A stretch of DNA of 64,000 nucleotides. Origin: Cellvibrio zantedeschiae (GTDB lineage Bacteria; Pseudomonadota; Gammaproteobacteria; Pseudomonadales; Cellvibrionaceae). The stretch lies in assembly GCF_014652535.1 (NCBI RefSeq), contig NZ_BMYZ01000003.1:518864-582863 (forward strand). The letters run 5' to 3'. Below are positions 8,444-28,937 of this stretch, piece after piece. The stretch's first letter is position 1; each line of letters opens with the position of its first letter. The position numbers and the translations under genes are program-made. A model generated the notes under the pieces. The model was given only the letters and a program-made list of their open reading frames with translations, was not told where the DNA came from and made no database searches.

Positions 8444-8836
8444 TTAGTCAGGTGTAGTCAATTCGGCCACAATTCTGAAAAAGTAATCCTTAGAGTGTTT
8501 TTTTGTCAGCATTTGCTCAGATACAGTTTGTGATATTCGATTGAACTGGGGATGGTTGAAAAATTCATCTCCAAACTCCCAAAGCAATATTTCTTTAATG
8601 ACAGCTTTAGGAGCTTTTTCTTCAAAGTTATCTTGCTCTTTTAATTTCTTTAATATTGTTTGTAGATTTTTTTTAAGCTTTTCTTTATCTCTTTCTTGGC
8701 TATTGTCAATTTTAAGTGATGCAGCAGCGCCAGCTTTCTTTTCGATAGTTGATTTATGAGTATTGGCGCCATCAGAACTTGTTACTGAAAGCGTTTTAAA
8801 TATAGCCGTGATGCGTGTAGGGTCAATAATAGACAT
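8444..8836 (-). CDS. Small helical protein of unknown function, last gene of the flagellar-type cluster
   Basis: I do not recognise this 130-residue protein. It has a Ser/Thr-rich N-terminus, a strongly charged Lys/Glu/Gln segment (residues about 45-70) likely to be helical, and a C-terminal part around EILLWEFGDEFFNHPQFN. No signal peptide or membrane segment is present. Its ATG overlaps the stop of the upstream TPR gene by one base, so it is translationally coupled and belongs to the same operon. Small size, a polar flexible N-terminus and operon position would fit an exported substrate or an accessory of the export machine, but neither is shown. Confidence 0.75.
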   Translation of the reverse strand: MSIIDPTRITAIFKTLSVTSSDGANTHKSTIEKKAGAAASLKIDNSQERDKEKLKKNLQTILKKLKEQDNFEEKAPKAVIKEILLWEFGDEFFNHPQFNRISQTVSEQMLTKKHSKDYFFRIVAELTTPD

Positions 8837-9399
8837 TAATTTTCATCATCAAATTTCGATTCTTTATAAGCATTTAGAAAAAGCGCATTGTAAGCTTCTT
8901 CTGATTTTGCTCCATTTTTAATAGCTAAGCTTGGCTCATTAGAGAGTAATTTTATCACTGTATGAATACTTCCCTGTAATGCAGGATTATCGCTTTGCAT
9001 TTCCGCAGCTTGATTTAACAATCTCAGTCCTTCTGGTTCATCAGATTCTATCATTAACATGGCATTTGCAAAGGATTTTAAGGGCGAAACATTTAAGGAA
9101 GTGCTCAAAGATACCCACATAGTATTGCTATCATTTTTTCTACCGATTTGCAGATAAAGTAACCCCAACTGATAATAAGCCATTTCAATGTTAGGATCTA
9201 AACTAATGCATCGCTCCATCCCTTCAATGGCTCGGTTATATAAACCTAACTCTGCATGTACTGCAGCTAAAAGGAAAATGGCACGGGCATCATCCGGCGA
9301 TAATGACAATGCTCTATGAAGATACTCCAGCGCAGAATGATGTTTATTATGTTGCGTTGCATGTATTGCTAAGTGTAAATATTCCTCAAAATCCAGCAT
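8836..9399 (-). CDS. TPR-repeat protein of the flagellar-type cluster
   Basis: A 187-residue soluble protein with at least three tetratricopeptide repeats (AIHATQHNKHHSALEYLHRALSL, DARAIFLLAAVHAELGLYNRAIEGMERCISLDP, MAYYQLGLLYLQIGRKND). TPR folds bind peptides and often act as chaperones; in type III secretion, translocator chaperones of the SycD class are small TPR proteins, which makes a chaperone role attractive but unproven. A ribosome-binding site (AGGGAT) precedes the ATG. It lies 18 bases after the larger TPR gene and overlaps the next gene by one base. Confidence 0.82.
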   Translation of the reverse strand: MLDFEEYLHLAIHATQHNKHHSALEYLHRALSLSPDDARAIFLLAAVHAELGLYNRAIEGMERCISLDPNIEMAYYQLGLLYLQIGRKNDSNTMWVSLSTSLNVSPLKSFANAMLMIESDEPEGLRLLNQAAEMQSDNPALQGSIHTVIKLLSNEPSLAIKNGAKSEEAYNALFLNAYKESKFDDEN

Positions 9400-9417
9400 G
9401 GTTTTATCCCTAATAAA

Positions 9418-10629
9418 TTAATGAAGCTTTTCTTTTTTCGACAAATTACCTGATAATTCAAATAAACGTTTTTCAATTAATGATTTTGGGGTTGCCCCTA
9501 TTTGCGCATTCGATTGATTAATCGACTTTTCAAACAAAGCTTGAGCCGCAACAGTATTATTATCATTGTTTAAAAGTATCATTTGAGCATAGATGGCCGC
9601 AAACCCTTGAGGATTTAATTTCTGAGCAATTTTGATGTGTTTCTCGGCTAAATGAGTTTGTTTCAAGTGCGCATAACTTGCAGCAAGACCGCCATGTGTT
9701 TCAGCAAAACGCTGGTCCAGCGCATAAGATTCTTTGAATACTTTTAATCCATTATCAAAATCACCAAGCATGATATTTGCCCACGCCAGCAAATGCCAAC
9801 TTCCAATATGATTAGTCATAAAATGAACGGCATTTTGTGCAGATTCTTTACACAAATCAAATTGCAAATTATTAAAGTGGACTTGTGCGAGCGAGGCCCA
9901 TGCTCGACCAACTTCAGGGTAATGTTGTGTTGCAGTGAATGCATCAGACTCTGCCTGCACATAATTACCACGTTCTAAATTTAGCGATATCCTTGCCAAA
10001 AGCGCTTCAATCAACAACGGATTATCTTGTAACGCTTTATCTGCTAAATCTAAGGCAACAGTATAATTGCTGTTACTTTCAAACATAATTAATGACAGCA
10101 ATCCAGCAGCTTCAGCCTGAAATCCATGTATTTGTATTAACTCTTGCAAGTGTTGAATTGCCTCAACCAGATCATCATTATAATGAAGTAATCGTGCTTT
10201 AAGTATCATGTGTTCAATGGGTAAAGGATTCCCAACTTGAGGAATTGCACCGAGTAAATTCAGGGCTTTTTCAAAATCTTGCAAATGAAAATAACAATTC
10301 GCCATATTGTAAATAATAACGGAGTTTTCAAGTCCCTTACTTACTGCGCTAGACAGGTATGCTAATGCCTTTTTATAATCACCCAGTGCAAGAAATAAAT
10401 ATCCGGCATGCGCATCGAACACATCACTTTGCATCACGGTTTCATTTGTACGAGCTATAAGCTGAGAAGCAAAGTTCAATTCACCTATTTCTAACGCTAA
10501 TGCAAGTGTATCCAAAAACAATTTTTCATTGTTCGCATCACGCGCAAGAAATTCTATATATCTTTCGAGTTTGTTTCGTTGTTCTACCAATACTGATGAC
10601 AACTCGGCAACTTCTATACTTGGATTCAT
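9418..10629 (-). CDS. Large TPR-repeat protein of the flagellar-type cluster
   Basis: A 403-residue protein built almost wholly of tetratricopeptide repeats (for example DAHAGYLFLALGDYKKALAYLSSAV, IYNMANCYFHLQDFEKALNLLG, ETHGGLAASYAHLKQTHLAEKHIKIAQKLNP). No signal peptide or transmembrane segment is visible, so it is probably cytoplasmic. A GTAGGA ribosome-binding site precedes the ATG. It is separated from the sigma-factor gene by 96 bases, the widest gap in the cluster, so an internal promoter there is possible. It is not a known flagellar core component. Confidence 0.85.
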   Translation of the reverse strand: MNPSIEVAELSSVLVEQRNKLERYIEFLARDANNEKLFLDTLALALEIGELNFASQLIARTNETVMQSDVFDAHAGYLFLALGDYKKALAYLSSAVSKGLENSVIIYNMANCYFHLQDFEKALNLLGAIPQVGNPLPIEHMILKARLLHYNDDLVEAIQHLQELIQIHGFQAEAAGLLSLIMFESNSNYTVALDLADKALQDNPLLIEALLARISLNLERGNYVQAESDAFTATQHYPEVGRAWASLAQVHFNNLQFDLCKESAQNAVHFMTNHIGSWHLLAWANIMLGDFDNGLKVFKESYALDQRFAETHGGLAASYAHLKQTHLAEKHIKIAQKLNPQGFAAIYAQMILLNNDNNTVAAQALFEKSINQSNAQIGATPKSLIEKRLFELSGNLSKKEKLH

Positions 10630-10725
10630 TAAGTAGTCCTACAACAAGAGTGCAGTTATTGAAAGTTTATTAGCGAAGTGAATACATAGTGATCGAATCG
10701 CAAGGGATTGATCAATTTCCTGTGA

Positions 10726-11430
10726 TTAATATTTTTCATAAATAATGCGTAATTTTTTTAATGCTTCTGTATGCAATTGCGAGACACGTGAGGTTGATAC
10801 ATTTAAAGAAGTAGCAATATCTTTAAATTTCAAATAACTCATATAGTGCGCTTCAATGATAAATTTTGATGCTTTATCCAGTTTGGAAATGGCATCCATC
10901 AATTTCTCTTCCTGTGAGTGAGAGCTGTATATATCCATTGGGTTCGATGAAAACACAGGTGCTTGCGCTGCTGAAGAATCGAGCAATATTGAAAATGCTG
11001 CGTTGATTACAGAGTCAAGAAATGTGTCAAAATGCGGTGCGCTTTCATCTTCTAATGATTCAAATGGCTCAAAATTCATATCACTTTCATTTTGAGTATT
11101 TTTGGTAAATGTACTTTCTCTATATGCAATATTAAGAATGGCGCCCTTTAACCTAGAATATGCAAAACCTTCGAATGGGACCCCTACGCTTGGATCATAC
11201 CGACTAATTGCTTCTAACAACGCAACTGATCCAATTTGAACACAATCACGCCATTCTGTTGTTCGACTAGAATATTTTGAGTACATGGATGTAGATATTT
11301 TTTTCATCCATGGCAAATAATAAAGAAATAAGCTATTCCTAGCCTCGATAGAAGTTGTCTCTAAATATAGCATCCACAATTCGCTAATCGAATCATTTGA
11401 TCTATTACTTATACAATTATCTAACTGCAT
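10726..11430 (-). CDS. FliA-type RNA polymerase sigma factor
   Basis: A sigma-28 family factor. Region 2 is clear (WRDCVQIGSVALLEAISRYD, then FEGFAYSRLKGAILNIAYRES), as is region 4 (LKFKDIATSLNVSTSRVSQL followed by HTEALKKLR), which matches FliA. The region 3 equivalent is poorly conserved. The ATG at 11430 lies two bases after the fliP stop and gives 234 residues; a longer frame would start at 11478 inside fliP. A sigma factor inside the cluster suggests self-contained control. No FlgM anti-sigma gene is present beside it, so how it would be held inactive is unknown. Confidence 0.85.
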   Translation of the reverse strand: MQLDNCISNRSNDSISELWMLYLETTSIEARNSLFLYYLPWMKKISTSMYSKYSSRTTEWRDCVQIGSVALLEAISRYDPSVGVPFEGFAYSRLKGAILNIAYRESTFTKNTQNESDMNFEPFESLEDESAPHFDTFLDSVINAAFSILLDSSAAQAPVFSSNPMDIYSSHSQEEKLMDAISKLDKASKFIIEAHYMSYLKFKDIATSLNVSTSRVSQLHTEALKKLRIIYEKY

Positions 11431-11432
11431 TA

Positions 11433-12095
11433 TTAAGTGGCTACACTTGTGACCAATACCTGGGTGATCAATTCCCAACCATCAATAACCACAAAGAGCA
11501 TGATTTTTAATGGAAGCGATATGGTTGTAGGAGGCACCATAATCATCCCTAACGATGTCAGTATTGCTGCAATTACAAGATCAATTAATAAAAACGGCAA
11601 AAATATGATAAATCCAATTTTGAATGCGAGCTTCAATTCACTGAGCATGAACGCTGGAACAAGATATTGAAACTCTACATCTTCCATTCTCTTAGGCGTT
11701 TCTTTCTTGGAGATTTTATAGAGAAACTGTATATCCTTTTCTTGGGCCTGGAGAAATATAAAGCTACGCATTGGCTGCCATGTTTTATTAACAGCATCTT
11801 CAATATTAATTTGTTTTTGTTGATATGGAACCACGCCTTCCATATAACATCTCTTAAAAATGGGTTGCATTGTGAAAAACATTACAATTAAAGACAATAC
11901 AATTATGACGATATTAGGAGGACTTTGTTGCAACCCCAGAGCATGACGCACAAATGAAAAAACAATTAAATTGCGCGTAAAAGTGGTCATCGAAATGATA
12001 ATGATTGGCAGCAAAGATAAAAGCGTCACTAACGCTAATATATTTAGCTCACCTGACATACCTTTCATTTCAAAGATGGAATTTATATCAGACAT
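11433..12095 (-). CDS. fliP: Flagellar-type export gate protein FliP
   Basis: FliP forms, with FliQ and FliR, the helical export gate inside the MS ring. The 220-residue protein shows the FliP signature (LSLLPIIIISMTTFTRNLIV, HALGLQQSPPNIVIIVLSL, LPFLLIDLVIAAILTSLGMI followed by MVPP) and four hydrophobic segments. It lacks the cleavable signal peptide common in flagellar FliP and is on the short side. It overlaps fliO by eight bases. In canonical operons fliQ comes directly after fliP; here the sigma-factor gene does, and fliQ stands at the opposite end of the cluster. Confidence 0.95.
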   Translation of the reverse strand: MSDINSIFEMKGMSGELNILALVTLLSLLPIIIISMTTFTRNLIVFSFVRHALGLQQSPPNIVIIVLSLIVMFFTMQPIFKRCYMEGVVPYQQKQINIEDAVNKTWQPMRSFIFLQAQEKDIQFLYKISKKETPKRMEDVEFQYLVPAFMLSELKLAFKIGFIIFLPFLLIDLVIAAILTSLGMIMVPPTTISLPLKIMLFVVIDGWELITQVLVTSVAT

Positions 12096-12372
12096 TTTTG
12101 TTTTCTGGCGTCAAAGTAGGAAGTTGATTAACGTCGTCAACAATCGATATTGCTATTGCATTAGCATTGGAAACAACCAAATACTTACGACCAGAAATTG
12201 ATAATAAACTGGCAATACCTGCTTTAGGGATAACTTTTTGTTCAACGATTGCTATAGATTGATTAGTAATTTTAAGATGCTTATTCAGCCAGGGACGAAG
12301 AAAATATAGTAAACAGAAAGCACCTGCCAGAAGTGCTGTTAGACTGATCATTATTCTTACAAAATAATCCAT
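12088..12372 (-). CDS. fliO: FliO-like export apparatus assembly protein
   Basis: A 94-residue protein with one N-terminal membrane segment (MISLTALLAGAFCLLYFLRP) and a small cytoplasmic domain. The fold is suggested by the pattern EQKVIPKAGIASLLSISGRKYLVV, which resembles the FliO motif in which a basic helper domain ends in a conserved G-R-YLVG element. FliO helps FliP form its ring. Its place between fliN and fliP is canonical and supports the call more than the weak sequence does. Confidence 0.75.
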   Translation of the reverse strand: MDYFVRIMISLTALLAGAFCLLYFLRPWLNKHLKITNQSIAIVEQKVIPKAGIASLLSISGRKYLVVSNANAIAISIVDDVNQLPTLTPENKNV

Positions 12373-12391
12373 AATTAAATTAGCTTCTTAA

Positions 12392-12691
12392 TCAATCAAT
12401 GATTTCAGAGATTTCAAAACCAAAATTATCATCAATAATCACCAGTGATCCTGATGCAACTATTTTTCCATCCATTTTTAATATCATGGGTGAATTTACC
12501 TCTTCAAGCATCTTTACCACACTGCCAGCTTTTAATTGAAGTAATTGATTCACTGTCATTTCAACAGAACCAACAACCACCTCAAGCGTTGTTTTAAGAT
12601 GGCCATAAATTACTGGATCTATCTTTACCAGCGAATCACCCGTAACATTGCTTTTTTCAGAAAGTTCCGAAAGCTCCAAATCTTCAATCAT
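12392..12691 (-). CDS. fliN: FliN-like C-ring protein (SpoA domain)
   Basis: A 99-residue protein consisting of a short acidic N-terminus and one SpoA domain (LEVVVGSVEMTVNQLLQLKA, GSVVKMLEEVNSPMILKMDG, KIVASGSLVIIDDNFGFEI), as in FliN and the C-terminal part of SctQ. It should form the base of the cytoplasmic ring or sorting platform and dock the FliH-FliI complex. It sits six bases after the FliM/SctQ-like gene, the usual order. Confidence 0.88.
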   Translation of the reverse strand: MIEDLELSELSEKSNVTGDSLVKIDPVIYGHLKTTLEVVVGSVEMTVNQLLQLKAGSVVKMLEEVNSPMILKMDGKIVASGSLVIIDDNFGFEISEIID

Positions 12692-12697
12692 AATTTT

Positions 12698-13417
12698 TTA
12701 CTCTTTTAACGTAATAAACGCTTTATGTATATCTAGCTTCCCAAGTGCGACGCTGGCTATTTTTTTTGATCCAATACTTATAGAAAATTTATTTTCTACC
12801 GGACTTTGCAATTTAATAATAGTACCTACACCCGCATTTTTTAAATCCTCTACAGATACATTACCTCCTTGTAATGACACTGATAAACTTGCAATAGATG
12901 ATGCTATGAAATGGTCGCGCTTAATCTTTTTATTAAGTGCTTTAAGCTGAACTTTTTTGGCCTGATGTGACCACATCCAATGAGGACAAAAGAAATTTAA
13001 TGATCCAGCTTCCTCAAAAGAAACAGTGACTCTCATATATGTTTTTATATGCTTCGGAAAGCTCAATGAGGATAAATTGCTAATTTCATGCGACCCAAAC
13101 AGCTCTGCAAATAAATCCGTGGTAGCAGCTTGCGTAAGTTTTTTAATGGCTGACCCATCAAGTGTATTAGCATTAGAGAAAATTATTTTTCTCCAATTCA
13201 TATTTTTATCTTCAACTGTAAAAAAAAATCTACTATTTTTTTTACATATATTTATGCCAGTACAAGCATCAAAATCAATTTTCTCACAAGAAGTAATGGA
13301 TACTCTTGGAATGATTTGTGAAAAACACCAATCACTCATCCAGTTCTTTACATTGTTAGTAAGATATAATTCCAAATCTGAAAGCGCATCTTGATTTAAT
13401 AAAGCCAGAGGTAACAT
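12698..13417 (-). CDS. Short FliM/SctQ-like protein with C-terminal SpoA domain
   Basis: The C-terminus is a SpoA domain (SVSLQGGNVSVEDLKNAGVG, IIKLQSPVENKFSISIGSKK, VALGKL), so the protein occupies the fliM place. It is about 239 residues, roughly 90 shorter than usual FliM, and the CheY-binding motif LSQxEIDALL at the FliM N-terminus is absent. The middle part is not clearly the CheC-like domain of FliM, and the architecture is nearer to SctQ of injectisomes. The ATG at 13417 follows the flgE stop by one base; a longer frame starts at 13462 inside flgE. It suggests a ring without chemotactic switching. Confidence 0.72.
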   Translation of the reverse strand: MLPLALLNQDALSDLELYLTNNVKNWMSDWCFSQIIPRVSITSCEKIDFDACTGINICKKNSRFFFTVEDKNMNWRKIIFSNANTLDGSAIKKLTQAATTDLFAELFGSHEISNLSSLSFPKHIKTYMRVTVSFEEAGSLNFFCPHWMWSHQAKKVQLKALNKKIKRDHFIASSIASLSVSLQGGNVSVEDLKNAGVGTIIKLQSPVENKFSISIGSKKIASVALGKLDIHKAFITLKE

Positions 13418-13418
13418 A

Positions 13419-14579
13419 TTATTTAGATCGTGTGCTGTTGTATAATTGATCCAAAAGATCATTTGAGACGCTCATAATTCTTGAGCTTGCCTGATAACCT
13501 CTTTGAATGATTAGAATGTCTGCGAACTCTTGAGTAAGATCAACGTTAGACATTTCAATACTTTTACTTTGGATGCTGCCAAATAGAGCATTGCTGGGCT
13601 TACCGTATTTCAATCCTGTATTGTTATTAGCTTTCAGCATTCCGTTATGAGTGGCTGCAAGAGTTGAAGGATCATTAAACAATGCAATACCAACTTGCTG
13701 ACCAGATTTAGTAGTGCCGTTTGTATATTTAAATTGAATTACACCATCTGTATCTACAGACAACGAACTCAAACCTAAAATTGCATGACCATCTTTACTC
13801 ATCGCGCCAAGATTTGAAGTTCCACTTAACTGCGTGGCACCCGATAAAGAACCGGAGGCGCCAAAATTAAACGCTATCGTCTGGGATGAAGTGCCCAATA
13901 CCAGTGTTTGGTTGATAGAATTAAAACCAGTCAGTGGCGTAGCGTCAGCACCAAACTGGGTAGTAAAAGTTCCTAAAACCGCATCTGATGCAGATTTAAC
14001 AGTAACATTCCAGGTGTTAGTTGCTGGTGCAGCTGCTTTAGCAAAATCAAGCTTTAACTGAAACTTATCACCAACCGAGTTGTAGACTGTGACATTGGTA
14101 AGTGAGTAAGAAGTGTCGGTGGAACTTAAGTTTCCCAATAAATCGATCGCCGTAGTCGCTTCAGGAGACAACGTTTTACTAGTAGATATATCAATTTTTG
14201 AAAGCGCGCCGGCAGAATTAATAGCCATCACTTGCATTCCAGTAGCGCCATCAACAAGAACATTTTTTTCATTGAATTTGAATTGGCCCGCTCGGCTATA
14301 AAATATATCGCCACTATCATTTTTTAAAATAAATAAACCGTCACCATTAATGGCAAGGTCTGTAGCTACGCCGGTTTGTTTTAAATCACCAGCTTGATCC
14401 CGAGCAACTTTAACTCCTATTGTTGCTCCATCACCTTGCATATCACCACCTAAACCACGCATGAATAAATCATTTCCGCGAAACCCAGGTGTGTTCATAT
14501 TTCCGATATTATTACTTACGTTATCCAGGCTTTTAGAAAAGTTTAGCATTCCACCTAAGCCGTTATAAAATGATTGCAT
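13419..14579 (-). CDS. flgE: Flagellar-type hook protein FlgE
   Basis: A 386-residue axial protein with the rod/hook N-terminal motif (FYNGLGGMLNFSKSLDNVSN followed by NIGNMNTPGFR), the conserved DLAINGDGLFIL and FYSRAGQFKFNEKN elements, a central variable region, and the C-terminal coiled segment SIEMSNVDLTQEFADILIIQ followed by RGYQASSRIM. It polymerises into the hook. Length is within the normal FlgE range. A good ribosome-binding site (AGGAAC) precedes the ATG. No hook-associated protein or flagellin gene follows in the cluster. Confidence 0.93.
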   Translation of the reverse strand: MQSFYNGLGGMLNFSKSLDNVSNNIGNMNTPGFRGNDLFMRGLGGDMQGDGATIGVKVARDQAGDLKQTGVATDLAINGDGLFILKNDSGDIFYSRAGQFKFNEKNVLVDGATGMQVMAINSAGALSKIDISTSKTLSPEATTAIDLLGNLSSTDTSYSLTNVTVYNSVGDKFQLKLDFAKAAAPATNTWNVTVKSASDAVLGTFTTQFGADATPLTGFNSINQTLVLGTSSQTIAFNFGASGSLSGATQLSGTSNLGAMSKDGHAILGLSSLSVDTDGVIQFKYTNGTTKSGQQVGIALFNDPSTLAATHNGMLKANNNTGLKYGKPSNALFGSIQSKSIEMSNVDLTQEFADILIIQRGYQASSRIMSVSNDLLDQLYNSTRSK

Positions 14580-14607
14580 GATTTTGTTCCTAATAAAATT
14601 TGAGTAG

Positions 14608-15012: not shown

Positions 15013-15834
15013 TTAAATCTCCTTACCGTTTAATATTATCGTGCTAAGTTTTTCCAGATGACTCACAAACAGCTTTTTAATATCACCACTATCTAGCTCT
15101 AAATTATTGCCATAATCTCTGATCAATAAAATTTTTTGTTCTTCACCAATAAGAGATATTTTATATTTTTCATATTGCATTAAGTGTTCAGCGCTAACTG
15201 CTTTTGTAGGATTCTCTACAAGATCAACATTCTCTAAATACTTGGTGGCTAACTCTTGAGTCGCCACTCCAAACTTAACGCCATTATTCGTGGAAATATA
15301 AGGTGTGAGCATTTTGAAATCGTTTATGTGTGCGTCGGTATTGTGAATTTTTTCTGAATTTAGAATTTTTGAAGTCAACATTTTATCAGGCAGGCGATCT
15401 ATATAAGAAAGTTTGTAAGTAGCAAAAGCGCTCAACTCAACATCTAACTTTTTTTCCTTGCTTCCCACAGCTTGTTTAGCGCTATTTACGACGCCCTTTT
15501 TAACTAAAGGAAGTTCCTCTGCAAAGCATCCAGGGGCTGATAAATTATTTTTGCCCAGCGTAACAATAGTTCTTTTTGAAGCTTGCGCAGAAATTATTGT
15601 CGCCGATCCGCTTTGTTTTACAGACTCAGAAAACTTTCCAGAGTGTTTCACATCATCCGTTTTAGATGCTGACCCCAAAACCAAATTTATAAATTGCTGC
15701 TTGTTATGTGTAAAAATTTTATTTTTTAAAGAGCTGTGAAAATTTTTTGTATCTTTCGATGCATTTTCGTTGAACGGCTCAGGGTTATTATTCGGCTGAC
15801 CGGCAATGAAAGATTGAGAATCAATATTATTCAT
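15013..15834 (-). CDS. Putative FliK-like hook-length control protein
   Basis: The 273-residue product has a low-complexity, Asn/Ser/Lys-rich, probably disordered N-terminal two-thirds and a more structured C-terminus (LMQYEKYKISLIGEEQKILL ... LDSGDIKKLFVSHLEKLSTI). This layout and its place between fliJ and flgD fit FliK, which measures hook length and switches substrate specificity through FlhB. Sequence similarity alone would not prove it. The ATG at 15834 sits four bases after the fliJ stop; an upstream TTG at 15864 is less likely. If right, the hook has a controlled length even though no filament genes are here. Confidence 0.55.
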   Translation of the reverse strand: MNNIDSQSFIAGQPNNNPEPFNENASKDTKNFHSSLKNKIFTHNKQQFINLVLGSASKTDDVKHSGKFSESVKQSGSATIISAQASKRTIVTLGKNNLSAPGCFAEELPLVKKGVVNSAKQAVGSKEKKLDVELSAFATYKLSYIDRLPDKMLTSKILNSEKIHNTDAHINDFKMLTPYISTNNGVKFGVATQELATKYLENVDLVENPTKAVSAEHLMQYEKYKISLIGEEQKILLIRDYGNNLELDSGDIKKLFVSHLEKLSTIILNGKEI

Positions 15835-15838
15835 AAAA

Positions 15839-16246
15839 TTATTCTTGATTATGTTTAAATTCAATAAGTGTTGCTAATTCTTTGCTGCACTTTAATGATT
15901 TTTCACCAATGATTTTTTTTGCTTTAGTATTTTTTAAAATATTATCTAAAAGTAATGCTATTTCATTTTTTGTTTCAGCAACGGAAATCAACTCTTCGCG
16001 CTGTTTTTCAGCTATGTATGTCGAATATTGATCAATGGCCTTCTGATGAGAAGGGAATATATTAAAGGCTAGATAGGTATCTATATCCGATAGTTGCTGT
16101 ATTATTACAGCCAACCTATGTTCGTGTGCTTTTTCACACTCTATAGCCAATGAATGATTATATGCGTCTTGTTCATATTCATATTTTTTTATTTTTGACA
16201 GGAGCGTCAACGCATTTTGCTTTTTAATAAGATTATTTATTTGCAC
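15839..16246 (-). CDS. fliJ: FliJ-like export chaperone/coiled-coil stalk
   Basis: About 135 residues, highly charged and almost entirely helical, consistent with the antiparallel coiled coil of FliJ, which inserts into the FliI ring and activates FlhA. Primary sequence is weakly conserved in this family; the place directly after fliI gives most support. A GTG at 16246 is preferred as start because AAGGAG lies exactly seven bases upstream; the frame can be extended to a TTG at 16252, too close to that site. It overlaps the fliI end by 14 bases. Confidence 0.7.
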   Translation of the reverse strand: MQINNLIKKQNALTLLSKIKKYEYEQDAYNHSLAIECEKAHEHRLAVIIQQLSDIDTYLAFNIFPSHQKAIDQYSTYIAEKQREELISVAETKNEIALLLDNILKNTKAKKIIGEKSLKCSKELATLIEFKHNQE

Positions 16247-18234: not shown

Positions 18235-18257
18235 TTAAAGATATAAACTCTATTAAG

Positions 18258-18584: not shown

Positions 18585-18587
18585 AAT

Positions 18588-19922: not shown

Positions 19923-19931
19923 ATTGATTTT

Positions 19932-20982: not shown

Positions 20983-20986
20983 GTTC

Positions 20987-22087: not shown

Positions 22088-22641
22088 AGAACACCTAGCG
22101 AATTAAAGAAGCGATATAAGATATTTTGCTTTTGCGAACGACTAATATCGCCAATACCAGATATCTCTAGTTTTGCTTCTGATATCTGATATGAAAATAT
22201 ACTATTATTTTTAGATACGTCTTTTGCTCTAATTAAACCGGTAACAGTAATACTCTGCTTTTCACCGTTTATAGTTATAGTTTGAGCTCCATTAATTCTA
22301 AGCATTCCCTCTGGCAATATTTCTACCACTGTCGCACTTAATTGCGTAGAAACTTTTCCTTTTCGACTGGTTTTACCATTTCCTTCGTCGCTAGCACCAA
22401 TACCAACACCCGCACTAACCTCATTGCTAGTGTTGTGTGCTCTTGCACTTATGTCAGTTTTCTTTTCAACACCTGTGCCTGCCGATGCCTCCGCTGATGT
22501 AGTCTCTACAACATACACGACTATAGGCTCACCAAGGCTATAGGATTTTGCATCACTAACAAGCGGTTGGTATTTATCAATATCTGCGGCAAAAGCAGAT
22601 GAACAAATAATTCCTAATAGTAAATATTTAATTTTCAACAT
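22084..22641 (-). CDS. flgH: Flagellar L-ring protein FlgH without a lipobox
   Basis: FlgH forms the ring in the outer membrane. The core is recognisable (KSYSLGEPIVVYVVETTSAE, QLSATVVEILPEGMLRINGA, QTITINGEKQSITVTGLIRA, LYRFFNSLGVL). At 185 residues it is shorter than usual. Most FlgH proteins are lipoproteins; here the signal region reads LLLGIICSSAFAADI, where the only cysteine is preceded by Ile-Ile rather than a lipobox and an AFA|A signal-peptidase I site follows. It thus appears to be secreted without lipid. The gene overlaps flgA by 14 bases. Confidence 0.92.
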   Translation of the reverse strand: MLKIKYLLLGIICSSAFAADIDKYQPLVSDAKSYSLGEPIVVYVVETTSAEASAGTGVEKKTDISARAHNTSNEVSAGVGIGASDEGNGKTSRKGKVSTQLSATVVEILPEGMLRINGAQTITINGEKQSITVTGLIRAKDVSKNNSIFSYQISEAKLEISGIGDISRSQKQNILYRFFNSLGVL

Positions 22642-23320
22642 ATATCGTATCTTTTTCTCTTAGCGTACCAGTGAGTATTACGCCACTGGTCAATATGCGT
22701 ATTTTTATTTTTTGATCTGGAGCAGAAACATCTTCCAAACTAATAGCATCCATTTCAATTTTTAATCCACTGTCAATTAAAACAGCTTTAACATTGGTAT
22801 TTCTTTCTAACAATAAAGGAGAAGATAAATGCTCGCTAAATATTATTTGTCCCTTACTACTGCGCTTCGTCAAACGTTTACCAACAATATTACTTTCACT
22901 AAAATTCCTAACACCAAAAAATGGCGCAACATTTACAGTTTTTAAAATTACAGCGTCTGAGGTAATTATTGCACCTGCATTCTGATCTTTCGCGAACGTC
23001 CAAACATCTTTATACAATTCAAAGGCTACATTTACTGTTGACTTAACCTTTTGTTTATTTTCACGAGCCTCCACCCACACAACCTTAAACCTTCCTTGCA
23101 ACGGCGAACTTACTATTATCTGAGTGACATCAGAGCTATCAGGTGCATCTGTTTCTGTTAATTTCAATGGAGAAATTGATGCTTTTTTGTAATCTCTTGG
23201 AAGATTTTTGCATGCAGCGACTTCCCAAGTTTGCACACGGTTAGAGCTATTCATATGTGATATCACACCAGAACAATCAATTATTCCACCAATGATAACT
23301 GCCCCTAACGTGCGTAGCAT
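22628..23320 (-). CDS. flgA: P-ring assembly chaperone FlgA
   Basis: A 230-residue periplasmic protein with an N-terminal hydrophobic export signal and a SAF-like C-terminal domain (KDQNAGAIITSDAVILKTVN, NIVGKRLTKRSSKGQIIFSE, KIRILTSGVILTGTLREKDT). FlgA assists polymerisation of FlgI around the rod. It lies four bases after flgG and overlaps flgH, so it belongs to the rod-ring segment flgFGAHI. The placing of flgA between flgG and flgH differs from enteric operons, where flgA is divergent. Confidence 0.88.
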   Translation of the reverse strand: MLRTLGAVIIGGIIDCSGVISHMNSSNRVQTWEVAACKNLPRDYKKASISPLKLTETDAPDSSDVTQIIVSSPLQGRFKVVWVEARENKQKVKSTVNVAFELYKDVWTFAKDQNAGAIITSDAVILKTVNVAPFFGVRNFSESNIVGKRLTKRSSKGQIIFSEHLSSPLLLERNTNVKAVLIDSGLKIEMDAISLEDVSAPDQKIKIRILTSGVILTGTLREKDTIYVEN

Positions 23321-23324
23321 TTAA

Positions 23325-24086
23325 TTAGCGCCGTAAATTATTAATTGTTTCTAGTATCTGATCAGCCGTTTGAATCAATCGCGCATTTAATTGATAAGCT
23401 CGTTGAGCTAATAATAAATCACTCATCTCATCGACTAAATTTACATTAGACATTTCAAGAAAACCTTGTGCGAGAGTAGTTTTGCTAGTGCTCGTTGATT
23501 CCAATTCAGCCTCACCACTTTGTTTCGTAGGCTGAAATATTTGATTTCCAATCGATTGCAAATATTCAGGATTATTAAATCGAACAATATTGATGCTACC
23601 TACGTCTAAAAAATTTCCATCGCCCATGTCAGCTGACACCAAGCCATTTGGTGCAATTCTCACACCTTTATTGCCTGTAGGAATATTGATGTCCGAGCTA
23701 AGTAATGAGCCATCATGAGCAACTAGTCTTCCGTCAGCATTTACGCCGAGATGACCAAGTTTTGTATAAACCAAATCACCATTCTCGGTTTCAAGTTCAA
23801 TAAAGCCGTCGCCAATAACAGCCACATCTAAATATTTTCCCGTTTGCTTAATATCGCCTTTGGAAAAATCAGTCGCTTTATTCGCAATACTGACTCCCAT
23901 GCCTTCAAAGTTTGATTTTTGAACTGGCTCATGCTGAATATTTCCTGCACTAATAAGCTCACTAAATCCAACAGATGCTTTTTTAAACCCTGGAGTCTGC
24001 ATGTTGGCAACGTTGTGAGAAATTGAGTTAATCCACTCTTGATTTGCTTTCAATCCATTCTCAGAAATATGTAGTATCTCTAGCAT
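23325..24086 (-). CDS. flgG: Distal rod protein FlgG
   Basis: A 253-residue rod protein with the N-terminal motif WINSISHNVANMQTPGFKKA, the central DVAVIGDGFIELETENGDLV and YTKLGHLGVNADGRLVAHDG elements, and the C-terminal block GFLEMSNVNLVDEMSDLLLA followed by QRAYQLNARLIQTAD. Length is close to the FlgG norm of about 260. It forms the distal rod that crosses the P and L rings. Confidence 0.94.
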   Translation of the reverse strand: MLEILHISENGLKANQEWINSISHNVANMQTPGFKKASVGFSELISAGNIQHEPVQKSNFEGMGVSIANKATDFSKGDIKQTGKYLDVAVIGDGFIELETENGDLVYTKLGHLGVNADGRLVAHDGSLLSSDINIPTGNKGVRIAPNGLVSADMGDGNFLDVGSINIVRFNNPEYLQSIGNQIFQPTKQSGEAELESTSTSKTTLAQGFLEMSNVNLVDEMSDLLLAQRAYQLNARLIQTADQILETINNLRR

Positions 24087-24095
24087 TCCAATTAC

Positions 24096-24794
24096 CTATT
24101 TTCCTATTTGGTTTATTCCGACATCAAGCACACTGCTGTAGGCAGTCATAGCTCTTTGTAACATTTCAATATGGCGAGAGATTTCTATAATTTTCGTCAT
24201 ATCACTTTGTATATCGACATTTGAGGCTACTAAAGCTCCCTGAACAACTTTGGGATCCGTTGCTTCTTTGGCATCACTCGGGGATAAGTAAACTCCATTG
24301 CCAGCCGGACTTAACGTAAAGTTTTCTGGTAATGAAATCATTTTTAATTTATCAACATACTCACCGCCCGAGAACACACTGCCATCAGAATGAACGGTAA
24401 AGCCAGGTTTCAAAGCGGTGATGTATCCATTAGTGCCTACAACTTTGTATTTTCCCAAGCACAGCGTACCTGCTTCATCTAAATTGAAATGCCCGTTGCG
24501 CGTGAGAAAAGTTCCCTCGTCAGATTCAACTTGAAACCAATCACCAGAATTTATTCCTATATCATTTGAACTTTGAGTTAAACGCAACGCGCCCAATTTT
24601 TTATCTGGTGCAACACTGTAGGAGTTATCAATTTTTTGATTTAGCAAAATTTTTTTAAACTGATTACCATCAAGATAAGTTTTCTCTTGAAGAAATCCAT
24701 CGCTATTAACATTGCTTGAATTGTGCGCAATCGAGTTCATTCGCTCGATTTCAACCCTCATAACTCCGGCATAAGCCATTATCGGATCTGTCAT
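24096..24794 (-). CDS. flgF: Proximal rod protein FlgF
   Basis: A 232-residue rod protein paralogous to FlgG, with RMNSIAHNSSNVNSDGFLQE near the N-terminus, GDWFQVESDEGTFLTRNGHF in the middle and VVQGALVASNVDIQSDMTKI at the C-terminus. The gene overlaps flhA by four bases (ATGA) and lies nine bases before flgG. It is a little shorter than typical FlgF. Confidence 0.9.
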   Translation of the reverse strand: MTDPIMAYAGVMRVEIERMNSIAHNSSNVNSDGFLQEKTYLDGNQFKKILLNQKIDNSYSVAPDKKLGALRLTQSSNDIGINSGDWFQVESDEGTFLTRNGHFNLDEAGTLCLGKYKVVGTNGYITALKPGFTVHSDGSVFSGGEYVDKLKMISLPENFTLSPAGNGVYLSPSDAKEATDPKVVQGALVASNVDIQSDMTKIIEISRHIEMLQRAMTAYSSVLDVGINQIGK

Positions 24795-26857
24795 ATACTC
24801 TCTGCCATTTGCTCAAATTCAATTATGCCTGACGACACAACGCTGACACGTTCATCAATCTCATTAATTGATATTACTTTTAATAGGGGTAATGCTCTAC
24901 GCATCACTTTTTTAACAAATTTTCTCACCGGCGCTGCGCACAAAATTACCGGGCTGACATTTGCTTTTAATAATTTTTCAGTTTCTTTCGATATTTTATT
25001 AATTAATGTGTCTATTTCTTTTGGTGATAGTGGTGAAGCATTGATGTCTGTGTATCCAGCGGAAGCCAATAATTTTCTTTCTATATTGGGATAAAATGTA
25101 ATTGCATGAATTTTTCCCTCACTATCGCAAACTGATTCGCAAATACTGGCCTTAAGTTTTTGCCGGCAGCTTTCTACCAGTTCTTCAGGATCTTTTACAG
25201 TGCGCCCCAAATCGGCAATTACTTCAAAAATTGCTGTTATATTTTTTATAGGTACTTGTTCAGCCAAAAGTCCTTGTAAAATTTTTTGTATATCCGAATA
25301 AGTAAACATTGCAGGTATTACATCATCAACCACATTGCCTAATTCAGATCTACGCAAATCTATTATCTTCTCTACTTCTGCTCTCGTTAAAAAATGACCT
25401 GCGTATCGCTTGGAAATTTCCTGTAGATGAGTTAGCAACACTGTCTCGGGTTCAATCAAAGTGTATCCGAGGTTTTGTGCAGCTGTTCTTAATTCAGGAT
25501 TAATCCATTTGGCTGGGAGACCATAGGTAGGCTCTCTAGTGCTTTCACCTTCAATTTCTGTGCAATCACCTCGCGGATTAATTGCTAACAAGCAGTCAAA
25601 CTTCAGTAATCCAGAAGCGAAGCTCTCGCCCGCAATATAAATTTTGTATTCATTTGGTCGCTGTTTAACATCTTTTTTAAACGTTAGTGTTGGCAATACA
25701 AGACCCAATTCGTTTGCAATATTTTTTCTCAAAATTGAGATTCTACGCTCTATGTCGTATTCTTCTTTTGCAAAGAAATCATGCAGAACACTGCCTATTT
25801 TTATTTCAAATGGTTCCGTGATCATGTCTTCATAGAACTGCTCATTTTCTATGAGCCGCTTAGGCTCCTCTTTTGTACTTTGAGCTGTTTGTTGCTTCTT
25901 TTTACCTTGATAGATCAACCATGCAATGCCACCGAAAATAGCAATCAAAATAATTATCGGCAATTTTGGCAACCCTGGAATAAATGCTTCGACGACTAAT
26001 GCCACTAATAAAATCGCTATCGTCTTGGGATGAGCAGAAAATTGTTTGAAGACTTCAACTCCCAAGCGAGCATCGGTTGCGGCTCTGGTAATGATAATTC
26101 CAGACGCCACCGCAATTATTAACGATGGTATTTGCGTTACAATTCCGTCTCCAACTGTTAATAATGTATATCTATGTAAAGCATCGCCCCACGACATACC
26201 TCTTTGCGCAATACCAATTGAAAGCCCACCAATAATATTGATGATGATAATGACGATTCCTGCTACAGCATCGCCTTTAACAAATTTTGATGCACCATCC
26301 ATTGCGCCATAAAAATTCGATTCCTTTTCCAGCTGTGAGCGTCGTCTTTTTGCTTCATCGGTATCAATAATTCCCATATTTAAATCTGCATCAATACTCA
26401 TCTGTTTACCCGGAAGGGAATCGAGGGTAAACCGCGCAGCTACCTCGGCAACACGTTGGGCTCCATTGGTAACAACGATATATTGAACAACAATAAGAAT
26501 AAAAAATATTACCAATCCAATAACATAGTTTCCTGCAACAACATGGGCTCCTACTGCGTCGATTACTTCACCTGCATCGCCATTTTGCAAAATTAATCTA
26601 GTTGTCGATATATTCAACGATAATCTAAACAAAGTCGTCATTAATAGTAGAGATGGAAATGTAGAAAACTCTAATGGCTTTTCCGTGTAAAAAGTTACTA
26701 ATAAAATTAACAGTGCTACCGAAAAATTTGTCAGCAAAAGAAAGCTTAAAACGCCTTTGGATATAGGAACAAATAGGATCATTAAGATTCCTATCATGCC
26801 GATGATCAGGATTAAATCCTTTGCACCTAAAAAAATACTTGCAAACCGCGCCTGCAT
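24791..26857 (-). CDS. flhA: Type III export apparatus protein FlhA
   Basis: A 688-residue protein with an N-terminal region of about eight membrane segments, the FHIPEP signature around FTLDSLPGKQMSIDADLNMG and GIIDTDEAKRRRSQLEKES, and a large cytoplasmic domain that forms the nonameric ring receiving substrate-chaperone complexes. Normal length and intact conserved blocks point to a working export gate. Its ATG overlaps the flhB stop in TAATG, and its stop overlaps the flgF start. Confidence 0.97.
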   Translation of the reverse strand: MQARFASIFLGAKDLILIIGMIGILMILFVPISKGVLSFLLLTNFSVALLILLVTFYTEKPLEFSTFPSLLLMTTLFRLSLNISTTRLILQNGDAGEVIDAVGAHVVAGNYVIGLVIFFILIVVQYIVVTNGAQRVAEVAARFTLDSLPGKQMSIDADLNMGIIDTDEAKRRRSQLEKESNFYGAMDGASKFVKGDAVAGIVIIIINIIGGLSIGIAQRGMSWGDALHRYTLLTVGDGIVTQIPSLIIAVASGIIITRAATDARLGVEVFKQFSAHPKTIAILLVALVVEAFIPGLPKLPIIILIAIFGGIAWLIYQGKKKQQTAQSTKEEPKRLIENEQFYEDMITEPFEIKIGSVLHDFFAKEEYDIERRISILRKNIANELGLVLPTLTFKKDVKQRPNEYKIYIAGESFASGLLKFDCLLAINPRGDCTEIEGESTREPTYGLPAKWINPELRTAAQNLGYTLIEPETVLLTHLQEISKRYAGHFLTRAEVEKIIDLRRSELGNVVDDVIPAMFTYSDIQKILQGLLAEQVPIKNITAIFEVIADLGRTVKDPEELVESCRQKLKASICESVCDSEGKIHAITFYPNIERKLLASAGYTDINASPLSPKEIDTLINKISKETEKLLKANVSPVILCAAPVRKFVKKVMRRALPLLKVISINEIDERVSVVSSGIIEFEQMAESI

Positions 26858-27927
26858 TATAAAAACACCTTACTATTTGGAGACTTTATTATTTCTTTGT
26901 AAATATCGGCAATAATTTGCTGTTCGGATGTTGGTATAACATTATTCACTGCAACCTCGGCATAGAGTTTTCTTGCCAAAGATGGGCGGCGATAAACAGG
27001 AATGCCATGCATTTTTGCCCTTTTGATAATAAATTTCGCAAAAAATCCCCTACCTTTAGTTAGTACTATCGGTAAAGCCATAGTTTTTGATCTGTATTGG
27101 AGGGCAACTGCAACGTGCGTGGGATTTGTGATAATCACATCGGCATTTCTTATTTTTGATGCACCGCCAAGATTGCGTAACAATTCAACTAAATTTTTCT
27201 TCCTTTTATTTTTTAGCTCAGGATCCCCTTCTCTTTTACGATACTCATCTTTTATATCTCGAGTACTCATTCTCATTTTCTTAGCGAATTCTCTTTTGCT
27301 ATACCATAAATCAAAAATTGCAAAAAGAATAAATACAATAAGAATTGATACCGTCATTGCCACTAATGCCGTTTTCCAACTATTTAAAATGGCATACGGA
27401 GATAATGTTCCTGGATGCAGTATTTGAACTTTAAATTGGCGCCAAACGAAGAAAGTTGCTATTGCAAAGAAAATAACTTTCAAGACCAGTTTAAATAACT
27501 CAACAAGCCCTCTAATTGAAATAATTTTTTTGATCCCGTTTACAGGATTCAATTTTTCAAGATCAAATTTAAGCGGATATAAAGAAAATACTGAACCAAT
27601 ATGTAAAAGAGAAGATAAAACGGCTGCTAAAACACCTAACGCCATTATCGAACCAATAATTTCAAAAGCGTCGCCAGCAAAACTTTTTAGTTGCGCAATA
27701 ACTAATATCGGAGACTTAACTATTTCATTGGTGTTTTTTATCCAGCTTGTAGTTTGAATGCTCAATATATTGACTAGCTTCGGAATGGATATGCAAATAC
27801 CAAAACTCATTACGCATAAGCTACACGCTGAAACAAACTCGTGGCTTTTGCCAACTTGCCCCTTCTTTTTTGCTTCTTCGAGTTTATAAGGTGTTGCATC
27901 CTGTGATTTATCTGCCTGATTTTCCAT
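26857..27927 (-). CDS. flhB: Export switch protein FlhB
   Basis: A 356-residue inner-membrane protein with four membrane segments and a cytoplasmic domain carrying the autocleavage motif NPTH (residues 268-271) in VIITNPTHVAVALQYRSKTM. Cleavage there normally allows the switch from rod/hook to late substrates. The motif is intact although no filament substrate is encoded in the cluster, which hints at another class of late substrates or at simple retention. It is three bases downstream of fliR. Confidence 0.96.
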   Translation of the reverse strand: MENQADKSQDATPYKLEEAKKKGQVGKSHEFVSACSLCVMSFGICISIPKLVNILSIQTTSWIKNTNEIVKSPILVIAQLKSFAGDAFEIIGSIMALGVLAAVLSSLLHIGSVFSLYPLKFDLEKLNPVNGIKKIISIRGLVELFKLVLKVIFFAIATFFVWRQFKVQILHPGTLSPYAILNSWKTALVAMTVSILIVFILFAIFDLWYSKREFAKKMRMSTRDIKDEYRKREGDPELKNKRKKNLVELLRNLGGASKIRNADVIITNPTHVAVALQYRSKTMALPIVLTKGRGFFAKFIIKRAKMHGIPVYRRPSLARKLYAEVAVNNVIPTSEQQIIADIYKEIIKSPNSKVFL

Positions 27928-27930
27928 TTT

Positions 27931-28677
27931 TTAAGTGCGCACCACATTTATCCATGTTGATAAGCTATTCTTTAATAGAGCGTAAATAGTATCTGTTGAG
28001 TTCTCTAAAGTTATTCCGAGCAACAATAAACTTAAAAATATTTTTAATGGCATAGCAACAAAATATATTTGAGCTTGCGGTAAAGATTTAGATATAAAAG
28101 ATAATGCAATATCGAGTAACCACAGGGTGATAATTATTGGGCTTGCTACCACAAATCCCAATATAAAAATTTCAGAAATCGCATGAAAATAATTATCGTT
28201 TAATCCATAGCTTACACCTGGAGGTGCAACTCTAAACAACTCAGCAAAAGAATTTAAAAGATCGTAATCCAACCCCAAGGAAAAAAAACAAATAATCAAA
28301 ACTAGGGAAAAGAGAGTTCCTATTGGACTATTTGGTTGATAACTCGCAGGATCAAATGTAGAGGCGACTGCCAACCCGGTTTGAATATCTATTAACTGCC
28401 CCATCATGTGTACAGCTGCATTCGCAGCATGAAGACTCAACGATAAAATAATCCCTAAAAAAATTTCGCTTACTAACAAAGATACAGATAAAGTTGTTGG
28501 TATTAGCTTTAAATGTTGCTCTTCCAAACTCGCCACTATCACCGAAGAAAAAACTATCACCAGAACCAATCTGACGACGACGGGGATAAAGGCGAATGGA
28601 AAGGCAGGTGCGACCAGGATAATCGGAGATAATCTAAAAAAAACGTAGGTTGCTGCTGCAATATTGCTCGAGATCAC
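27931..28677 (-). CDS. fliR: Export gate protein FliR
   Basis: A 248-residue protein with about six membrane segments and the FliR blocks RLSPIILVAPAFPFAFIPVV, IDIQTGLAVASTFDPASYQP and LPQAQIYFVAMPLKIFLSLL. It starts with GTG overlapping the fliQ stop (TAGTG). With FliP and FliQ it forms the export channel entrance. Confidence 0.93.
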   Translation of the reverse strand: MISSNIAAATYVFFRLSPIILVAPAFPFAFIPVVVRLVLVIVFSSVIVASLEEQHLKLIPTTLSVSLLVSEIFLGIILSLSLHAANAAVHMMGQLIDIQTGLAVASTFDPASYQPNSPIGTLFSLVLIICFFSLGLDYDLLNSFAELFRVAPPGVSYGLNDNYFHAISEIFILGFVVASPIIITLWLLDIALSFISKSLPQAQIYFVAMPLKIFLSLLLLGITLENSTDTIYALLKNSLSTWINVVRT

Positions 28678-28937
28678 TATCCTGCTGCCTGTAAAATAGT
28701 GTTCTTCGCATATTCAGCCAAGGTGGAGAGCATCCAGCCGCCAAAAAACATAACCACCATTACCCCAGCTATTATTTTGGGGACAAAAGTTAATGTCATT
28801 TCCTGGATTTGAGTAGCAACTTGGATGATGCTAACGATCAGACCAACGACTAAACACGCAATCAAAAATGGAGCTGCAATTTTGGCAGCAGTCGTTAGCA
28901 TTTGTTGGGTGAGATTAAGTGCGAATTCCTGTTCCAT
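28677..28937 (-). CDS. fliQ: Export gate protein FliQ, first gene of the cluster
   Basis: An 86-residue protein with two membrane helices and the FliQ pattern (APFLIACLVVGLIVSIIQVA, TQIQEMTLTFVPKII). It is the first gene of the minus-strand operon, so the main promoter should lie in the AT-rich stretch upstream of 28937. In ordinary flagellar operons fliQ follows fliP; here the pair is split to the two ends of the cluster. The ribosome-binding site is weak. Confidence 0.95.
   Translation of the reverse strand: MEQEFALNLTQQMLTTAAKIAAPFLIACLVVGLIVSIIQVATQIQEMTLTFVPKIIAGVMVVMFFGGWMLSTLAEYAKNTILQAAG

Follow-up and report, generated by a model that had tools for sequence, protein, structure and literature searches.

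The window analyzed here is a 64,000-nt stretch of the Cellvibrio zantedeschiae genome (contig NZ_BMYZ01000003.1, here contig C3, positions 518,864 to 582,863; genome of 4.27 Mb in 12 contigs). Its positions 8444 to 28937 carry, on the minus strand, a cluster of 28 genes, namely 24 of flagellar type followed by a sigma factor gene, two genes for tetratricopeptide repeat (TPR) proteins (TPR403 and TPR187) and a small gene (Table 1, in minus-strand order from 28937 to 8444). A Pfam scan of the 28 proteins placed FliQ, FliR, FlhB, FlhA, FlgF, FlgG, FlgA, FlgH, FlgI, FlgC, FliE, FliF, FliI, FlgD, FlgE, FliM (C-terminal domain only), FliN and FliP above the curated cut-offs and FliH below its own cut-off, while FlgB, FliO, FliJ, FliK and a small FliG counterpart (mini-FliG) had no passing match and are named by their place in the cluster, FlgB and FliG additionally by family profiles. 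The first-pass annotation, made from the sequence alone, had listed the same succession of genes, and scans and gene places agree with it apart from one label. The gene it called fliM/sctQ-like encodes a protein that retains the SpoA domain and whose structure model (predicted local distance difference test score [pLDDT] of 71) matches FliM, middle domain included (E = 1.9e-7).

Table 1. Genes of the cluster in the window, followed by the zincin-like genes found in related loci
Feature	Position	Strand	Evidence
fliQ, first cluster gene	28677..28937	-	PF01313 E 4.7e-27
fliR	27931..28677	-	PF01311 E 4.5e-44
flhB, NPTH autocleavage motif in translation	26857..27927	-	PF01312 E 3.1e-90
flhA, 688 aa	24791..26857	-	PF00771 E 1.2e-232; TIGR01398 745.5 bits, below NCBI curated cut-off of 772.1; separate clade in tree
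flgF, proximal rod	24096..24794	-	PF06429 E 4.2e-07, PF22692
flgG, distal rod	23325..24086	-	PF06429 E 1.2e-20, PF22692
flgA, P-ring chaperone	22628..23320	-	PF13144 E 1.4e-13
flgH, L ring	22084..22641	-	PF02107 E 1.9e-38
flgI, P ring	20987..22087	-	PF02119 E 2.4e-112
flgB, divergent	20638..20982	-	no Pfam match; family profile matches in 32/32 neighbourhoods
flgC	20252..20641	-	PF06429 E 1.1e-08
fliE	19932..20252	-	PF02049 E 5.6e-17
fliF, short, 444 aa, brief tail past second membrane helix	18588..19922	-	PF01514 E 4e-41, PF08345 E 2.7e-14
mini-FliG, 108 aa, FliG N region, no torque domain	18258..18584	-	family profile vs primary FliG and PDB FliG (see text); window copy alone has no passing match
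fliH	17560..18234	-	PF06635 E 0.0025, PF02108 E 0.0094, both under cut-off; family profile
fliI, ATPase	16233..17570	-	PF00006 E 3.6e-85, PF18269 E 4.1e-13
fliJ-like, by place	15839..16252	-	no Pfam match; same-slot ORFs in some relatives too dissimilar to join
fliK-like, by place	15013..15864	-	no Pfam match; same-slot ORFs in 11 Xanthomonadales loci too dissimilar to join
flgD, N-terminal hook-cap domain only, 134 aa	14608..15012	-	PF03963 E 1.5e-20
flgE, hook protein, 386 aa	13419..14579	-	PF06429, PF22692, PF00460, PF07559; alignment
fliM, no CheY-binding N-terminal peptide	12698..13462	-	PF01052 E 8e-6; structure model; N-termini compared
fliN	12392..12691	-	PF01052 E 1.8e-16
fliO-like, by place	12088..12372	-	no relevant Pfam match; same-slot ORFs in relatives
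fliP	11433..12095	-	PF00813 E 4.2e-70
FliA/WhiG-like sigma factor	10726..11478	-	PF04542, PF04545; TIGR02479 E 3.3e-28, under cut-off; in 28/32 neighbourhoods
TPR403, cluster-linked	9418..10629	-	TPR Pfams; presence in relatives (see text)
TPR187, cluster-linked	8836..9399	-	TPR Pfams; weak SycD/LcrH match E 5e-7, 29.5 bits vs cut-off 104.8
small helical protein, 130 aa	8444..8836	-	no Pfam; alignment; model pLDDT 68.6; no PDB match at E <=0.001
zincin-like gene	L036:7384-7851	-	
zincin-like gene	L041:12535-13011	+	
zincin-like gene	L042:8643-9206	-	
zincin-like gene	L045:10212-10676	-	
zincin-like gene	L052:11426-12046	+	

No member of the flagellin, FliD, FlgK/L, FlgJ, FliL, MotA/B, Che or secretin families was found among the 28 proteins (Pfam, E up to 0.01), in agreement with the earlier statement that filament, junction, FlgJ, FliL, Mot and Che genes are missing; the secretin search covered the 28 window proteins only, and FlgH and FlgI are present instead. 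The accompanying description of the cluster as motorless holds for the stator and the FliG torque domain, both of which are absent, but not for the C-ring, of which a reduced version (mini-FliG, FliM and FliN) is present. When the window genome's own primary flagellar proteins were used as queries against 32 cluster stretches (described below), FliC, FliD, FlgL, FlgJ, MotA, FliL, full FliG, FlhF and FlhG matched in none of the 32. The FlgK query matched FlgG alone, in five of the stretches, the primary FliM query matched one cluster FliM, and the CheA query matched in one stretch, that of Pleionea. The MotB query matched a single gene, which lies outside the cluster at window positions 1397–2440 on the (+) strand (open reading frame [ORF] of 347 aa, E = 9e-11), perhaps only through an OmpA-like domain.

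Several of the retained parts are short. FliF measures 421–504 aa in the 32 neighbourhoods, compared with mostly 530–620 aa open frames for other FliFs, and FlgD measures 134–155 aa in 26 of 32 members; the other six are longer and may represent over-long ORF starts. The family profile of mini-FliG aligned to columns 18–200 of 347 of primary FliG (E = 1.6e-7) and, among solved FliG structures in the PDB, to residues 13–170 at best (E = 5e-7). Because both alignments are limited to the N-terminal part, the protein appears to consist of N/M regions without the C-terminal torque domain, although one member shows a sub-threshold FliG_C match (E = 0.017) that counts against this absence; the 108-aa window copy is among the shortest members. 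The N-terminal, CheY-binding peptide of primary FliMs is absent from all 32 cluster FliM sequences. FlhB reads NPTH in 10 of 13 sequences by the pattern used. Separately, the hook protein is 659–723 aa long in G013 and G067 (L050:5475-7454 and L052:5178-7349) versus about 390 aa elsewhere, a size difference which suggests that the hook surface differs among sub-groups.

The genome contains two FlhA genes (PF00771) and three flagellin-domain genes (PF00669), the latter on contig C1. Loci on that contig comprise flhA, flhF, flhG, fliA, che (with cheA among them) and motAB; a run from fliE to flhB with a long FliG (343 aa), FliL and FliM (336 aa); and flgB to flgL (with FlgJ/K/L), flagellins and fliD. 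Apart from FlhA and flagellin, these names rest on matches to cluster proteins, gene order, protein size and general sequence resemblance; no match to the cluster's proteins was obtained for FliG, FliM and FliH of contig C1, and the search covered this set exclusive of flgA and short regulators. A full-looking second flagellar set, for which the first-pass annotation had proposed a search, is thus present. Flagellar genes are scattered over several loci in many bacteria, and the cluster might belong to a single motility system that is divided between loci in this way. However, most of them have a second homologue on contig C1 beside the very genes missing here, the reverse of the only-copy arrangement that the earlier annotation had named as fatal to its proposal, so that we regard the chance of a split system as negligible.

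Next, we examined how widely the cluster occurs. A short-FliF match was found in 10 of 96 related genomes, the window's own included (G000, G009 [two copies], G010, G013, G026, G040, G047, G050, G059 and G067), and among the nine other genomes, whose surroundings were read, seven had the same core order (eight clusters), while G010 is represented by a 4.2-kb contig with flgB-flgC-fliE-fliF. Named relatives were obtained through a FlgE search, from the best 80 of 520 confirmed matches; among the matches listed were Xanthomonas, Dyella, Pseudoxanthomonas, a Lysobacter metagenome-assembled genome (MAG), Pleionea, Rheinheimera, Thiodiazotropha, Achromobacter, Caballeronia, a Luteibacter MAG, Povalibacter and Sphingomonas. 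For the comparison by family profiles we used 32 neighbourhoods (12 from the G genomes and 20 named), excluding L068 (the same place as one G009 copy, G009a) and L083, L085, L106, L128, G010 and G040 (fragments, rearranged or broken). The core order from flgG to fliP, for whose recurrence elsewhere the first-pass annotation had suggested looking, is common to all 32, which span Gammaproteobacteria, Burkholderiales and one Sphingomonas. Specifically, FlgG, FlgH, FlgI, FlgB, FlgC, FliE, FliF, FliH, FliI, FlgD, FlgE, FliM, FliN and FliP were detected in 32 of 32, FlgA and mini-FliG in 30 each, and the sigma factor in 28. Of the two neighbourhoods that lack a mini-FliG match, that of Pleionea has a 116-aa ORF without a match in this slot. 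The gate genes adjoin the cluster in 26 of 32 (13 stretches directly and 13 more on fetched flanks, no flanks having been fetched for the other six), those of Sphingomonas lying on the opposite strand beyond the sigma gene. TPR403 accompanies 24 of the 26 clusters whose flanks were at least partly read, and was not found with Povalibacter or Thiodiazotropha.

In broader samples, the FlgE profile detected members in at least 6 of 398 Pseudomonadota genomes of a phylum sample (two of these weaker, at 246–248 bits) and at least 5 of 390 genomes of an order sample, the own genome being included in both. These counts are floors, set by a strict cut-off and up to four scored candidates per genome, and their low values suggest that cluster members are rare. 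A class-wide FliF profile was rejected as a family marker, as it matched 195 of 369 genomes and did not separate ordinary FliF, but it yielded three clear new members (G358, G314 and G393). An FlhA search found nothing on viral contigs, and on plasmids it returned 473 records, every one below 60% identity.

Other conserved features of the neighbourhoods are genes in the FliK, FliO and FliJ slots and one zincin-like gene in five loci, whereas further conserved ORF groups were dismissed because they look like wrong-frame reads of G+C-rich DNA. The zincin-like gene (154–206 aa) adjoins TPR403 at four of these loci and precedes fliQ at the fifth, and no member was found in the window. HExxH is present in the one sequence inspected, Pfam metallopeptidase matches were all under the cut-off in the two scanned, and the protein is possibly a cargo. 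The 130-aa small protein gave no convincing PDB match, and the SycD/LcrH likeness of TPR187 may be no more than TPR likeness.

We then considered the carriers. As regards INDEPENDENCE from the filament, flagellin and at least two FlhA genes were present in 24 of the 25 other carriers, and the flagellin genes lay either on a different contig or at least some 190 kb from the cluster; only the Lysobacter MAG departed from this, having a single FlhA and no flagellin match. In the family of this MAG, cluster FlgE was found in 7 of 149 genomes (MAG included), none of which had a flagellin match; besides the MAG, the clusters of four of these genomes were read, and they show the same gene order. Overall, 25 of 32 carriers have flagellin (the own genome included, on another contig) and seven do not.

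Trees of FlhA (65 rows, 26 from clusters) and of FliI plus FliP (53 rows, 32 from clusters) were quick ones without bootstraps, and several rows, the window's among them, have unusual composition. All 26 cluster FlhAs fall on one side of a branch of length 1.0 with a Shimodaira–Hasegawa-like approximate likelihood ratio test (SH-aLRT) support of 100, and all 32 cluster rows of the FliI+FliP tree form one clade (SH-aLRT 99), in which L091 has a very long branch. A branch with support of 100 places the cluster clade on its flagellar side, where it is distinct from the flagella that the same cells carry, and no grouping with injectisomes (SctV, SctN or SctR) was seen. No sister group of the cluster clade emerges, and in the FlhA tree the injectisome rows do not form one side of a branch. 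Tree building had been among the checks put forward with the first-pass annotation, and its view of an independent flagellum-derived apparatus with P/L rings and a hook gains support from the separate clade outside the injectisome rows, the second flagellar set and the conserved order. Four FlhA rows (L215, L216, L235 and L236) were rejected as primary flagella, being positioned near the injectisomes; SctQ-sized FliN-like genes adjoin L215 and L236, and the call for L216 and L235 rests on the tree. Some carriers also hold additional FlhA-like genes near the injectisome side (L259, L260, L261 and L262, two with SctQ-sized genes beside them), pointing to three or more type III systems within a single genome.

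The Dyella, Xanthomonas, Pseudoxanthomonas and Lysobacter members constitute one sub-clade in both trees that, judged from these sequences, looks vertically inherited, and the Lysobacter copy lies inside the cluster clade (L203 in the FlhA tree, L079 in the FliI+FliP tree). In comparison, the grouping of the Luteibacter MAG with Caballeronia and Sphingomonas suggests that the cluster was transferred between classes. The window cluster has a G+C content of 36.7%, compared with 46.5% in the rest of the window. In each of the five genomes of the same genus that were compared, yicC and the gene beside it are retained but nothing else is shared on the cluster side (window or 29 kb to the left), indicating a variable spot 3′ of yicC with no clean empty site; between fliQ and yicC, ~1 kb (window 28938–30006) is without an ORF of ≥80 aa.

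The ratio of nonsynonymous to synonymous substitution rates (dN/dS; Nei-Gojobori), calculated for 13 genes of the fetched stretches in three relative pairs, with some dS values near saturation, was low. It was 0.03, 0.03 and 0.17 for FlgE and 0.02, 0.04 and 0.07 for FlgI, and ranged from 0.04 to 0.12 for FlgC, 0.14 to 0.17 for FliF, 0.14 to 0.32 for FliH, 0.23 to 0.30 for mini-FliG, 0.25 to 0.26 for FliM and 0.06 to 0.32 for FliP. The chaperone-docking dimple of FlhA, a site named in the available part of PMC10965912, is kept in the cluster rows (D or E in 26/26, Y or F in 26/26, T in 25/26), unlike in eight non-flagellar rows. At position 459 (Salmonella numbering, via the DPAF match), a tyrosine occurs in 22 of 26 cluster rows versus 2 of 31 flagellar rows.

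An independent view of such genes comes from Lysobacter, where the accessible portions of three papers (PMC7277350, PMC9927559 and PMC4657364) treat them as a retained, potentially vestigial or apparently non-functional flagellar set. The accessible text of PMC9927559 reports fliD, fliC, flgK, flgL, flgB, fliE, fliG, fliM, motA and motB as lost in all 15 Lysobacter species (BLAST with X. oryzae genes), 14 genes as absent to varying degrees, and cites FlgD secretion. In the part of PMC7277350 available, the flagellar type III secretion system (FT3SS) of L. enzymogenes OH11, a species without flagella, is reported to export heterologous flagellin dependent on flhB and fliI, twitching is affected, PilA export depends on FliI, and the FT3SS genes make no operon. 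The cluster of our Lysobacter MAG has the same order as the others, with TPR403, TPR187 and the small gene. When Xanthomonas sp. NCPPB 1128 flagellar proteins were used as blastp queries against this MAG cluster only, the eight testable "lost" genes gave no convincing match (FlgB, E = 0.35; FliE, 2e-4; FlgL, 2.8; FlgK, 4e-4, to FlgE; FliC, FliD, FliG and FliM, none). FlhA, FlhB, FliF, FliI, FliN, FliP, FliQ, FliR, FlgC, FlgD, FlgE, FlgF, FlgG, FlgH and FlgI did match (E of 5e-7 or better), FlgJ and FliH did not, and FlgA reached just E = 0.004, which is not convincing. Family profiles nevertheless detected divergent FlgB, FliE, mini-FliG and FliM in the MAG, so that the published absence is probably in part a detection artefact. 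The retained Lysobacter FT3SS is probably the same system, a comparison made through the MAG and family members, from which we infer the link to OH11. As for the earlier suggestion of an undescribed system, it stands insofar as searches of open-access full texts found no description of a family of this kind, but the Lysobacter papers and a preprint on FliO (PMC12248157) probably met the same system, without treating it as a family in the portions available.

Taken together, the cluster encodes, as judged by sequence, a flagellar-type export gate (FlhAB, FliPQR), an ATPase complex (FliI and FliH, with FliJ by place), a short MS ring, rod, P/L rings, hook, hook cap and reduced C-ring, whereas neither a filament nor a hook-filament junction, stator or torque domain can be recognised in it; it forms its own clade, has low dN/dS and is present in genomes without detected flagellin. 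It is best read as a conserved, hook-tipped machine whose function is deduced, and we think it likely that this is a non-rotating, flagellum-derived type III export machine. In such a machine, rod, hook and cap subunits exported by the gate would assemble into a short hook-like tube that passes through the P/L rings to the cell exterior. Because FlgK, which would replace FlgD, is missing, this tube would either retain its own FlgD cap or be open at the end. The reduced C-ring would not rotate but would serve as a fixed platform for loading, further substrates would exit via the tube with the help of the two TPR proteins, and the sigma factor would time a second (late) gene class, maybe including the TPR genes and the small protein.

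Several observations weigh against this interpretation. Apart from the rod, hook and cap proteins, which are expected, no substrate was identified. In the regions upstream of fliQ and of the TPR module, no sigma-28 type promoter or common dyad was shared among 19 stretches: G059 alone had a promoter match reached by none of 100 shuffles, and the best dyads were A/T-rich and common to 7 host loci versus 6 in shuffles. In Pleionea sediminis, a STAS-CheY-CheA-CheW-CheW-MCP-CheR run lies directly downstream of the cluster sigma gene, and beyond the compared stretch, ~8 kb upstream of fliQ, there is a MotA/MotB-like pair (L081:14029-21028 and L254:2290-3737 for the two features together), so this cluster could conceivably be coupled to a motor; it is the sole case of che/mot neighbours seen, equally long flanks having been scanned for some of the clusters only. 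In G040, fliF and a weak mini-FliG match stand alone in 20 kb, and so little content implies that the cluster there is broken or misassembled. The 25 flagellin-bearing genomes could provide filament parts in trans, and the seven carriers without flagellin include one MAG and are assemblies of unstated completeness. Finally, L. enzymogenes flhA, flhB, fliI and fliR mutants lose twitching while fliP and fliQ mutants do not, according to the available part of PMC7277350, and such unequal phenotypes fit one simple export role poorly.

Three further explanations were weighed. An independent apparatus for sensing, adhesion or pilus control, with the hook as a surface structure, would account for the twitching phenotypes and FliI-dependent PilA export of L. 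enzymogenes, and no effector-like gene common to all clusters was found; yet gate, ATPase and substrate-docking site are conserved and OH11 reportedly exports heterologous flagellin (both Lysobacter results from the part of PMC7277350 available), which leaves a function other than delivery unlikely in our view. Alternatively, the cluster might build a second motile flagellum of the lateral type, for which the primary set would provide the junction, filament and stator proteins. This reading has in its favour the retained FlhA dimple, the NPTH motif in most FlhBs and the flagellin elsewhere in 25 of 32 carriers. Such a flagellum would, however, have to turn without the FliG torque domain and the FliM CheY peptide, and in seven carrier genomes there is no flagellin match to borrow from; we consider it quite improbable.

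The description in print of the Lysobacter copies corresponds to a degenerate flagellum remnant that lost filament and motor and was retained by chance. The loss-like gene content, the low G+C, the sporadic presence in 10 of 96 genomes and the state of the G040 copy are all compatible with decay. A remnant would nonetheless have to explain one clade with one core order across many families, low dN/dS in three pairs, linked TPR and small genes, and identical reductions of FliG, FliM and FliF that recur, since repeated decay is not expected to give the same reduced product repeatedly. We therefore regard chance retention as very improbable, and return to the export machine. In its widest form, a proposal for and against which we see the balance as even, the clusters represent a third type III lineage beside flagella and injectisomes: non-rotating, hook-tipped, with flagellar outer-membrane rings and its own sigma and TPR partners, inherited with Dyella, Xanthomonas and Lysobacter, moved between classes, coexisting with swimming flagella and delivering cargo, with the Lysobacter "remnant" as a working example.

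Injectisomes are thought to derive from flagella (PMC3459982, in the part available), and intermediates between the two are not seen today. The cluster clade may offer a living parallel case, a flagellum turned export device beside intact-looking flagella, in that rod, hook and P/L rings are kept while filament and torque parts are absent. It would also recast the experimental work on Lysobacter, whose "potentially vestigial" genes probably form an intact, selected system. Moreover, annotation by family name would label such clusters flagella, and motility may thus be over-predicted.

Among known systems, the Lysobacter FT3SS resembles the window cluster in gene set, order and lack of filament and motor (MAG and four more family genomes), but its papers, in the portions available, count as lost the fliG, fliM, flgB and fliE of which the cluster family holds divergent counterparts. 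The "non-flagellar T3SS operons" with FliO of the preprint PMC12248157, compared here by description rather than by accession, occur in Xanthomonadales, Sphingomonadales, Burkholderiales and other orders, a spread that fits the cluster family; in the available part of that text, the operon lies beside a flagellum in one Luteimonas and occurs without one in another, and such operons are called vT3SS in passing, with no description of rod, hook, P/L rings or a distinct clade. With the injectisome (NF-T3SS) the cluster would share a non-motile type III export machine, but it has no secretin match among its 28 proteins, bears P/L rings, rod and hook instead, and its FlhA and FliI/FliP fall outside the injectisome rows. 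With the bacterial flagellum it shares the export gate, MS/P/L rings, rod, hook, hook cap and FliM/FliN, and it differs in having no filament, junction, stator, FliG torque domain or CheY peptide, in its short FliF and FlgD, and in its own TPR and small genes. The hook-basal bodies of Buchnera likewise have no filament, but they are a reduced form of that genome's only flagellum, whereas the cluster represents a separate lineage beside a full-looking flagellum.

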